This document shows, in pieces, positions 1 to 48,522 of a stretch of 64,000 bases of DNA (its first letter is position 1; each line of letters starts with the position of its first letter). Source of the stretch: an uncultured Spartobacteria bacterium (GTDB lineage: Bacteria > Verrucomicrobiota > Verrucomicrobiia > Chthoniobacterales > Chthoniobacteraceae); NCBI GenBank assembly GCA_903882875.1, contig CAIRYQ010000079.1, forward strand, positions 1 through 64,000. Reading direction: 5' to 3'. The position numbers and the translations under genes were made by a program. The notes under the pieces are model-generated. The model was given only the letters and a program-made list of their open reading frames with translations, was not told the origin of the DNA and made no database searches.

Positions 1-6
1 AAGTGG

Positions 7-237
7 TTTTCCGGTTTGTAAATCGTGTTCTCCAGTTTGGAAAATGCGTCCGCCGGTTTGGAAGGTGCATTTTCCAGTTTGGAAAACCGCTTCTCCAAGT
101 TGGCGGATGACTTTTCCAAGTTGGAAAATCCATTCTCCGATTTGGAAAACACGATTTCCGATTTGGAAAATGGCTTTTCCAAGTTGGAAATTTCATTTTT
201 CGGTTTGGAAATCGCGATTTCCGAAATAGAAGACGCC
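7..237. repeat. Degenerate 21-bp tandem array 1 (11 units)
   Basis: Eleven consecutive 21-bp units start at 7, 28, 49, 70, 91, 112, 133, 154, 175, 196 and 217, with no insertion or deletion breaking the phase. The plus-strand consensus is close to TTTTCCRRKTTGGAAAA followed by four variable bases, so most units are themselves a 6-bp inverted repeat (TTTTCC / GGAAAA). The array may extend left of the window. It can be read as heptapeptides on either strand (plus: F-S-x-L-E-N-x), but the TCC, TTG and GAA triplets show almost no synonymous change, which argues for conservation of DNA or RNA sequence rather than protein. On the minus strand the array follows the leader at 241-300. Confidence 0.85.
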
Positions 238-240
238 TTT

Positions 241-300
241 TTCCGACCCAAAACGGCCTCTTTCAAAGGACGGCCCGGTTTTCCACCATTTTCCGTCACT
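241..300 (-). other. Conserved leader of repeat array 1
   Basis: Read on the minus strand from 299, this segment starts GTGACGGAA, continues with GGAAAACCGGGCCGT and then GAGGCCGTTTT, and runs into array 1. The same blocks in the same order border array 2 at 46980-47029. Between GGGCCGT and GCCGTTTT the two copies differ by one base, which would shift a reading frame, so the shared sequence is probably not conserved as protein. GTG could act as a start codon of a heptad-repeat ORF running off the window's left edge, but I do not call a CDS. Confidence 0.6.
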
Positions 301-483
301 TAAGGCTTGCTGAACAGACCGCAAATCCCCACCGTCGCGCCTCCGGCTTCCCTGCGCGGGAAGCATCAACCTCAGAAACCAAAACCCGGTAGCCCCTTGC
401 CCAGATTCGATGCCACACCACCTGCACGGATGGATGCCGGCCTCCGGATGGACTCGGGAGCTCCCACCCACACACCCCGCAAA

Positions 484-45318: not shown

Positions 45319-45476
45319 GGCGTTGTTTTCTTGGAAAATGGGCGCGGAAACTGGCACCGACGCCGCACGCTGGCAAGGGATAAAATCAACGGCGACGCAT
45401 TCTTTTTCATCGGCGGAATTCGCGCCCGCCGTCTCGCCGCTTGCGCTCCCTCCTCGGGAGGTTCAGCTTTTCCACC

Positions 45477-46499
45477 ATGAACACTCCCTCCCTCCCCTGC
45501 CCCGATTGCGAAACGCCGCGCATCATCGTCGTCCACGAACCGCTCCCGCAGATCGAGCGGCGCGCTTTTTTGAAAAAGACCGTCGGCGCCCTCGCGGCGA
45601 CCGCCATAGCGCCGTTCGCCCATGCGGCGAAGGGCGGGAAGAGCGAGACGCTCGTGCAGCAGTTTGCCAAGACGCTCACCACGGAGCAGCGCGCGAAGGT
45701 CTGGTTCCCGTTCGACGACCGCAAGCGCACGCTCGTGGACAACAACTGGCACATCGTGGACGAGAAAGTCGGCGCGTTTTTCACGAAGGATCAGCAGGCG
45801 ATGATCCGCGAGATTTTCCTCGGCCTGCACTCGCCGGAGTATGCGGAGAAAGTGATGCAGCAAGTCGCACACGACAGCGGCAAGGCGGGCTTCGAGGATT
45901 CGTCCGTCGCGCTTTTCGGCGAACCGGAGTCGGGCAAGTTCGAGTTCGTGCTCACGGGCCGCCACTGCACGCGGCGCTGCGACGGCGACAGCGTCGAGGG
46001 CGCGGCATTCGGCGGGCCGATTTTTTACGGCCACGCGGCGAAGGGCTTCAACGAACCCGCGGATCACGAGGGCAACGTCTATTGGTATCAGGCCAAGCGC
46101 GCGAACGCCGTCTTCCAGATGCTCGACGGCAAACAGCGTGAAAAGGCACTGCTCCCGCGCGGCCGCGAAGAGACCGGCAACGACACCGTGAAGCTCCAGG
46201 GCAAGAACGCAAACATCGAAGGCCTCGCCGTCGCCGACATGACGAAGGACCAGCGCGAAGGCGTGCGCAGCGTGATGCGCGATCTCCTCGCGCCGTTCCG
46301 CAAGGAGGACACGGACGAAGCGATGAAATTCGTCGAGGCCGCCGGATTTGAAAACATCCACATGGCATTCTACAAGGCCGGCGACATCGGCAACGACGGT
46401 GTGTGGGACGTGTGGCAGCTCGAAGGGCCGAACATGGTCTGGTATTTCCGCGGCTCCCCGCACGTCCACGTGTGGGTGAACATCGCGGCGAGCGCGTAG
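45477..46499 (+). CDS. Tat-exported DUF3500 protein
   Basis: A protein of 340 residues from ATG 45477. A short Cys-containing start (MNTPSLPCPDCETPRI) is followed by a twin-arginine signal (ERRAFLKKTVGALAATAIAP). DUF3500-type features: VWFPFDDRKRTLVDNNWHIV, VALFGEPESGKFEFVLTGRHCTRR, GGPIFYGHAAKGFNEP and the final NMVWYFRGSPHVHVWVNI. The function of this family is not established; His-rich motifs suggest metal. It lies divergent from rplU and just upstream of array 2. It ends in TAG. Confidence 0.82.
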   Translation: MNTPSLPCPDCETPRIIVVHEPLPQIERRAFLKKTVGALAATAIAPFAHAAKGGKSETLVQQFAKTLTTEQRAKVWFPFDDRKRTLVDNNWHIVDEKVGAFFTKDQQAMIREIFLGLHSPEYAEKVMQQVAHDSGKAGFEDSSVALFGEPESGKFEFVLTGRHCTRRCDGDSVEGAAFGGPIFYGHAAKGFNEPADHEGNVYWYQAKRANAVFQMLDGKQREKALLPRGREETGNDTVKLQGKNANIEGLAVADMTKDQREGVRSVMRDLLAPFRKEDTDEAMKFVEAAGFENIHMAFYKAGDIGNDGVWDVWQLEGPNMVWYFRGSPHVHVWVNIAASA

Positions 46500-46553: not shown

Positions 46554-46994
46554 TTGCCTTCCTGGAATCCCGGCGTTCCTGCTCACTTGCGCGAGCTCCC
46601 TTCTCGAAGTCCGCGCATCCGTGCGGCGTCCAATTTCATCTATTCCAAAGCCCGCTGCACGCCTCCCGGAATGCGGCGCCTTCCTCCGAAGCGCCAAAGC
46701 ATCCATGCGCGGGCTCAAAGTATCCATGCTTTGCCTCGGCGCATCCATGCGGCGGGAAAAAGTAGGCCTTCCACAGCCTTCCGCATGCCTCCACAAGCTC
46801 CGCGCAGGCCTGCGCAGCCCTAATGAAGCCCTCCGCAAGCTCGTGGAAGGCCTCCGCAAAGGCCGCGCATTCCTTCCACGACTCGCCGCATGGATGCTTT
46901 GATCCCGCGCATGGATACTTGGAGCGCTCGGAGGGATGCGGCGAGCTTCGGAAGGAATGCGCCGGCTCTCCGCAGCCCTGAAAAACGGCTTCTC
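46554..46994. repeat. Degenerate 21-bp phased array 2 (21 units) with inverted halves
   Basis: Units start every 21 bases from 46554 to 46974 with no phase break over 14 consecutive rows (46701-46974), all beginning with A and having T at position 6 and nearly all C at position 8 (pattern A-K-S-S-M-T-B-C). The middle of each unit is variable. The 33-base stretch around 46698-46730 matches the reverse complement of about 46888-46921 at about 30 of 33 positions (core GCATCCATGCGCGGG), so the two halves can form one long hairpin. Short ORFs across it are broken by stops and I do not call them genes. Confidence 0.85.
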
Positions 46995-47029
46995 TCTCGA
47001 AAACGGCCCCGTTTCCCGGCTTCCGTCAC
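46980..47029 (-). other. Conserved leader of repeat array 2
   Basis: On the minus strand this reads GTGACGGAAG, then GGGAAACGGGGCCGT and GAAGCCGTTTTTC, running into array 2. The same blocks occur in the same order beside array 1 (241-300). GTGACGGAA overlaps the end of bioD: the TGA of GTGACG is the bioD stop. Confidence 0.6.
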
Positions 47030-47706
47030 CGCACGATCTCGCGAAGCGACGGCGGCAAGGCCTGCGCGCCAAATTCGAGTTCACCGAGCAGCGGCACCGC
47101 GCCGCCGGGCAGCACGCCGAGCAGTTCCCCAAGCACGCCCGCATTCGTCACGACCGCCGCGTCACCATCTGCGGGCGGCTGCACTTGATTCAAAATCACA
47201 CCCGCGCAGCGCAGCCCGCGCGCGCGGATCGCCGCGATGGTGAGCAGCGTGTGATTGATCACCCCGAGCCGGTTCGCCGCCACGACGAGCACCGGCAGCG
47301 CGAATTCCGCCGCGAGATCCGCCATCGAAAAATCCCGCGCAATCGGCACGAGCCAGCCGCCCGCGCCCTCGACGATCACCGCCGCGTGAACCGCGCGCAG
47401 CTCCGCAAATTTTTCCCGCACCAGCGCTACATCCACCGAGCGCCCCTCGATCATCGCCGCCGCGTAGGGCGCCACCGGCGGACGCAGCCAAACTGGGTTC
47501 ACATCATTCAGCGCCACCGCACCGCTGCCGATCTCCGCATTCAGCTTCGAGGCCTCCGCGAGCAATTCCGCATCCTCACGCCCGCCGCAGCAGATCGGCT
47601 TGAAGCCCACCGCATCCACCTCCGCCGTGCGCAAAGTCCGCACGAGCATCGCCGCCACGCGCGTCTTGCCCACGCCCGTGTCCGTGCCGGTGATGAAAAT
47701 GCTCAT
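47026..47706 (-). CDS. bioD: Dethiobiotin synthetase
   Basis: A protein of 226 residues from ATG 47706 (MSIFITGTDTGVGKTRVAAM). It uses ATP and CO2 to close the ureido ring of dethiobiotin from DAPA. P-loop GTDTGVGKT, the substrate block VGFKPICCGGRED, the catalytic-site stretch VNPVWLRPPVAPYAAAM, EGAGGWLVPIARDFSMADLA and NRLGVINHTLLT are all present. No other biotin genes are adjacent. A partial copy of its 5' end lies at 48313-48522. Confidence 0.94.
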   Translation of the reverse strand: MSIFITGTDTGVGKTRVAAMLVRTLRTAEVDAVGFKPICCGGREDAELLAEASKLNAEIGSGAVALNDVNPVWLRPPVAPYAAAMIEGRSVDVALVREKFAELRAVHAAVIVEGAGGWLVPIARDFSMADLAAEFALPVLVVAANRLGVINHTLLTIAAIRARGLRCAGVILNQVQPPADGDAAVVTNAGVLGELLGVLPGGAVPLLGELEFGAQALPPSLREIVR

Positions 47707-47790
47707 GCGCGGCGAGCGTATGCGCGCGGGTGAAAATGGAAACCCAGAAGGACACCGGGCCGTCGCGATCCTCACGAGGCCCGCTGCAGC

Positions 47791-48312: not shown

Positions 48313-48522
48313 TCAATTTCCGCCGCGCAAGAGCCATCTCATTTGCGTAACCACAGCTCCAGTGGACGCCTCCGCGAGCAGTTCCGCATCCTCGCGCCCG
48401 CCGCAGCAGATCGGCTTGAAGCCCACCGCATCCACACCCGCCGCGCGCAACGTCCGCACGAGCATCGCCGCCACGCGAGTCTTGCCCACGCCCGTGTCCG
48501 TGCCAGTGAGGAATAGGCTCAT
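48313..48522 (-). pseudogene. Truncated duplicate of bioD (5' part)
   Basis: 69 codons starting MSLFLTGTDTGVGKTRVAAM and continuing nearly identically to bioD through VDAVGFKPICCGGREDAELL, then leaving homology at AEASTGAVVTQ. The DNA match with 47550-47706 is high (about nine bases in ten). It lacks the rest of the enzyme, so it should not be functional, though it may still be translated. Confidence 0.88.

Follow-up and report, generated by a model that had tools for sequence, protein, structure and literature searches.

Dispersed arrays of 21-nt units with a common hairpin leader in a genome of the Chthoniobacter group

Two tandem arrays lie about 47 kb apart in a 64,000-nt stretch of DNA (the window), which is the start of contig C79 in a 5.78-Mb assembly of 129 contigs; judged by alaS, the genome is closest, among named organisms, to Chthoniobacter sp. 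RYN_611 (91% identity) and C. flavus (89%). The initial annotation had noted that the same three short blocks stand beside both arrays while the repeated units differ. What kind of element joins a common leader to locus-specific repeats? The features of the window that bear on this question are as follows.

1 to 247, minus strand: array 1, about 11 units of 21 nt, with TTTTCC..GGAAAA arms conserved and loop and spacer variable
248 to 290, minus strand: leader of array 1, the double hairpin GGAAAACCGGGCCGT..GGCCGTTTTGGG
45441 to 46499, plus strand: convergent neighbour gene of bioD
46600 to 46977, minus strand: array 2, a single long and imperfect palindrome made of about 17 units of 21 nt, with its centre near 46809
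46978 to 47018, minus strand: leader of array 2, GGGAAACGGGGCCGTTTTCGAGAGAGAAGCCGTTTTTCAG, consisting of two A/T-flanked GC hairpins
47026 to 47775, minus strand: bioD, dethiobiotin synthase-like (AAA_26), with its stop codon TGA at 47028-47026

The leader and array 2 fill the roughly 530 bp between bioD and its convergent neighbour, which we take to resemble DUF3500 proteins, as a candidate family only. A partial second copy of bioD, covering the first 51 residues at 92% identity, lies upstream of the intact gene at 48364-48516.

The three blocks were present as claimed: each array carries them at its high-coordinate end (291-299 and 47021-47029), on the minus strand and in the same order, with the one-base difference in spacing between the two leaders. 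The 21-nt period was confirmed in both arrays by identity peaks at lags of 21, 42 and 63. The first block, GTGACGGAA, is present at both arrays, but at array 2 its GTGA belongs to bioD, whose last coding base and TGA stop occupy 47026-47029; this block is therefore mostly the end of a gene and largely a coincidence. The core that the two leaders have in common is GAAA(A)C(S)GGGCCGT..GCCGTTTT. The units do differ between the arrays, although the description of array 2 as made of CATCCATG units was too narrow. Its units are of CATCC type on one flank, GGCCT type in the middle and GGATG type on the opposite flank, which makes the entire array palindromic over 364 bp, though imperfectly (62%, centre 46809). 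Array 1 is likewise a long imperfect palindrome (64%).

Array 1 reaches the start of the contig, and contigs C71 and C90 match its last 141 bp and then part ways, a fork that points to two genomic contexts or to strain variation. The sequence AGCAAGCCTT immediately precedes the leader of array 1 in C79 and immediately follows the array in C90 (window 1-310 compared with L026 and L027); only if C79 joins C90 would it be a 10-bp direct repeat, and on the same proviso AAGTG..CACTT ends plus AGCAAGCCTT would flank array 1 on both sides.

The strict pattern GTGACGGAA..GGGCCGT..GCCGTTTT had exactly two matches in the 5.78-Mb genome (none for the reversed-pattern control) and none in 292 relatives, and the leader therefore had to be redefined. 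Its consensus is GAAAACGGSC(G)TTTTC followed, about 20-21 nt on and in register with the array, by a second A4..GCCG..T4 hairpin. In an 864-kb sample of this genome the core AAAACGGSC occurs 25 times, seven of them within 120 bp of an array against about 0.4 expected, compared with 0/44 and 2/27 for scrambled controls. With a gap of 0-3 nt before the T-run (AAAACGGSCN{0-3}TTTT), all nine sites in this genome stand at array edges, versus none of eight with a gap of 4 to 6, a split of short from long gaps that was chosen after the data were seen. When every gap up to 6 is allowed, the motif does not outnumber its reversed control across the genome; array sites are set apart only by the short-gap form and by a model of both hairpins.

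A covariance model built from 16 leaders was run over the whole genome. Of the hits that it gave outside its training set, 13 were read; nine of these lay at a 21-nt array, against a background of 3.6% (binomial P ~7e-11), and two of the other four lay at contig ends. The refuting outcome named in the initial annotation, leaders at chance level or standing without arrays, was thus for the most part not what the search returned, and the proposed family of elements with a common leader and locus-specific units was borne out genome-wide. A second model (R2) was built from 15 other leaders, leaving out the window arrays and the homologues of array 2. On the 64 kb its top three matches were 46978-47018 (E 0.005 on one strand and 0.014 on the other) and 227-267 (E 0.026), the latter being the leader of array 1 scored one 21-nt register further in; the best match away from both arrays had an E of 1.3. 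In about half of the sampled arrays no leader could be detected, which makes the leader common rather than universal. Leaders next to arrays of other units were also found in G002, G007 and G009 and in another genus (G033), and on contig C74 of G007 the leader units grade into the array units.

How widespread is the 21-nt period itself? Tandem arrays with periods of 10-63 nt were counted in 864 kb of large contigs of this genome, and 20 of 27 had a period of 21, 42 or 63. This corresponds to 23 per Mb, a figure that rests on this sample; if it holds throughout, the whole genome perhaps carries a hundred or more. Several contigs start inside 21-nt arrays, for example L048:1-287 (start of C72) and L251:1-247 (start of C116), so that the assembly breaks at arrays and the count is probably too low. 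In smaller samples the density was 5.5 per Mb for the genus and 5.6 per Mb for the family, and a 197-kb sample of the order and class contained no 21-nt arrays. The unit sequence differs from locus to locus. Although the sample is 87% coding by our own simple gene caller, 17 of the 20 array calls fall outside predicted genes, and the neighbouring genes are divergent, tandem and convergent alike. On C3, an array with a 63-nt period and an identity of 0.92 (L212:362-609) is separated by about 0.9 kb from a gene for a Y1-type transposase.

Since 21 nt equals seven codons, the arrays could encode heptad-repeat (coiled-coil) proteins. Array 1 is open from a GTG at its leader for 99 aa of FSKLEN heptads, and the arrays found within alaS (below) are in frame. 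Codon 3-periodicity, however, was seen in 0 of 19 arrays, with no codon-position signal in the variation of their units, and three of the 19 are closed in all six frames. The frame of array 2 stops half way, there was no Pfam or PHROG hit, and the conserved columns of array 1 are its arms TTTTCC/GGAAAA and not codon positions. On this codon test and on array 2 we reject the heptad-protein reading suggested by array 1, and for the arrays in general we consider coding hardly credible. A first protein search of the genome contigs found no relative.

The nucleic-acid role favoured by the initial annotation gains support from this lack of codon periodicity and from folding. Both window arrays fold far better than shuffled sequences (z = -5.4 and -6.1), and in 20 of 23 arrays self-complementarity exceeded that of copies in which the 21 or 42 columns had been permuted. 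The young, nearly identical arrays (C59:67k and contig C2 of G007) fold no better than their permuted copies, and hairpins are therefore not required for expansion. In single-unit arrays, pairing within units was barely above pairing across units; selection on each unit's own hairpin is thus not supported by within-unit covariation, and the folding of the whole array is the stronger signal. For the family of array 2, 7 compensatory changes were counted against 2.7 by permutation, and 17 against 7.4, with 37 and 55 broken pairs, on a structure predicted from the same alignments. With so many pairs broken, a conserved structure in this family is suggestive only.

Such folds would also be expected of long hairpin RNAs or bidirectional terminators, in which the leader, with its A-run, GC stem and T-run, would be a terminator-like hairpin and the transcribed array would fold as RNA. 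The very stable folds and some excess of compensatory changes speak for this explanation. However, the arrays fold on both strands, a scan of nine array loci against Rfam gave no match at gathering score, gene orientation around the arrays is indifferent, and one leader with its array lies within the alaS coding sequence of G002. We regard this explanation as distinctly unlikely. Array 2 had no plasmid match and array 1 no phage match.

Comparison of loci shows how the arrays come and go. Array 2 is homologous with arrays on C68, C5 and C129 of the same genome, which are 75-79% identical among themselves over about 430 bp, and a second homologous family was found on C42, C8 and C121. Differences in unit number between homologues are largely multiples of 21, the gain and loss of whole units that characterise minisatellites (VNTRs). 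The arrays at C120:116.2k and C116 have leader and upstream sequence in common (82% over 454 bp) and different units, and C19 has the same units as C120:116.2k. In the sister species G003 the bioD locus has no array, only about 18 bp separating the gene from its convergent neighbour, nor is there one in any other genus member having bioD; the dus locus is array-free in the six sister loci examined. The initial annotation had suggested looking for such empty sites in related strains, and the orthologous bioD and dus loci provide them. Homologous copies at several loci together with array-free orthologous sites are as in MITE-like elements. They lend support to the suggestion that these elements move by a common mechanism, although no mobilising enzyme was identified. 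Other 21-nt arrays are carried by sister species and by distant Verrucomicrobiota. Another, distinct palindromic element, GAAAATAGCCCAGCGCTTCAGCGCTGGG..GGGCTATTTTC, has dispersed copies in this genome (seen in L089 of G004 and the right flank of L066), and in G004 it adjoins bioD where this genome has array 2.

Arrays were also found inside an essential gene. In this genome and in G002, 21/42-nt arrays of different units lie in frame in the same loop of alaS (alanyl-tRNA synthetase), and a leader-like stretch adjoins the one in G002. Three further Verrucomicrobiota MAGs have 21-nt arrays of yet other units in this loop, giving the following five.

L061:1859-2447: 21-nt array in the alaS loop
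L119:15419-15960: 21-nt array in the alaS loop
L134:2197-2463: 21-nt array in the alaS loop
L152:2242-2530: 21-nt array in the alaS loop
L154:631-912: 21-nt array in the alaS loop

Flanked by ..STLPG and IAFRVIADH, the loop is a hotspot for insertions in Verrucomicrobiota. It holds REP-like peptides in L172, L183 and L191 and a DNA-binding domain of methylguanine-methyltransferase type in L206 (PF01035, E 8e-13), and the alaS frame of G002 (L119:14549-18199) also contains, in frame and downstream of the 21-nt array, a RAYT-like transposase (PF01797, E 3e-5). This tolerance of other inserts suggests that arrays have repeatedly reached a permissive site in alaS rather than that they have a role in the enzyme.

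These observations bear on whether the arrays are protein-binding sites. A cooperative DNA-binding protein could nucleate at the leader and spread along one face of the DNA, which would select for a 21-nt (2 x 10.5) phase, and the arrays would then act as boundary, nucleoid-organising or segregation sites. The exact 21-nt step at most loci, the conserved A-tract/T-tract leader and the intergenic placement all agree with such a role. It is difficult to reconcile with the lack of any unit sequence common between families, with sister species that do without the array at bioD and dus, and with the arrays inside alaS, and we think it unlikely.

The arrays are probably best explained as dispersed repeat elements of the Chthoniobacter group that are non-coding and non-autonomous, have an anchoring leader and turn over their units in 21-nt steps. 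Each member is a run of 21-nt units, two turns of the DNA helix, which jointly make a hairpin-rich imperfect palindrome, and many members carry at one end the conserved leader, whose two A4-GC-T4 hairpins keep the 21-nt register. A protein of the host or of the element may recognise the leader as the conserved end and so copy or anchor the element. Units could be replaced in whole 21-nt steps through slippage, unequal exchange or template switching at hairpins, and this turnover would make the unit sequence specific to the locus while period and leader persist. Because 21 nt corresponds to two helical turns, the phase of the DNA may be measured by a protein or by a step of replication. Against reading the arrays as mobile elements stands that the analysis established neither a transposase nor a rule for target-site duplication nor terminal inverted repeats.

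A bolder proposal, which we put forward as speculative and on balance improbable, is that the arrays are built and remodelled by a dedicated machinery which begins at the conserved, in-register hairpin leader and, using a 21-nt ruler, writes self-complementary units specific to each locus; such arrays would be a categorically new class of bacterial repeat locus. No description of such an array family was found in the open literature. If the 21-nt step recurs with unrelated units, the period would be set by a factor other than the sequence, such as a protein, a polymerase step or the helical phase of DNA, and what measures two helical turns becomes a testable question in bacteria. The array family is also a source of fast-evolving markers, and such DNA can sit in frame inside the essential gene alaS in several Verrucomicrobiota.

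Among known systems, REP and BIME elements, with their RAYT transposases, have GTAG/CGTC palindromes (PMC3733652) and include the REPINs (PMC3116915). They have been described in the Verrucomicrobium Opitutus terrae. Like the arrays reported here, they are dispersed, mostly extragenic palindromes that sometimes occur in frame within genes, and RAYT-type genes are present in this genome, so that mobilisation by RAYT (Y1) transposases had to be weighed. A REP family, however, has one conserved unit, whereas these arrays have locus-specific units, a strict 21-nt tandem spacing and a separate common leader. No palindromic unit is common to all copies, and the enrichment of 8-mers beside arrays traces to the leader core and to an unrelated palindrome with dispersed copies. 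Only three Y1_Tnp genes were found, and the repeats immediately flanking them are of other types than the array repeats. With too few transposases and other repeats beside them, a RAYT/REP origin is disfavoured, and we consider it very improbable. The double-hairpin and repetitive hairpin-forming elements of mitochondrial genomes are also small hairpin repeats, thought to spread intergenically (for example PMC2800124). They are single or double hairpins, whereas these arrays are long, keep a fixed 21-nt step and have a leader. CRISPR arrays, too, have a leader at one end and regular repeats; unlike them, these arrays have a 21-nt period and do not alternate one fixed repeat with spacers. Bacterial minisatellites change by whole repeats and have unit sequences specific to the locus, as these arrays do, but each minisatellite locus has a period of its own and no common flank, whereas these arrays keep 21 nt or a multiple of it at most loci (20/27 at 21, 42 or 63), with palindromic units and a common flanking leader.
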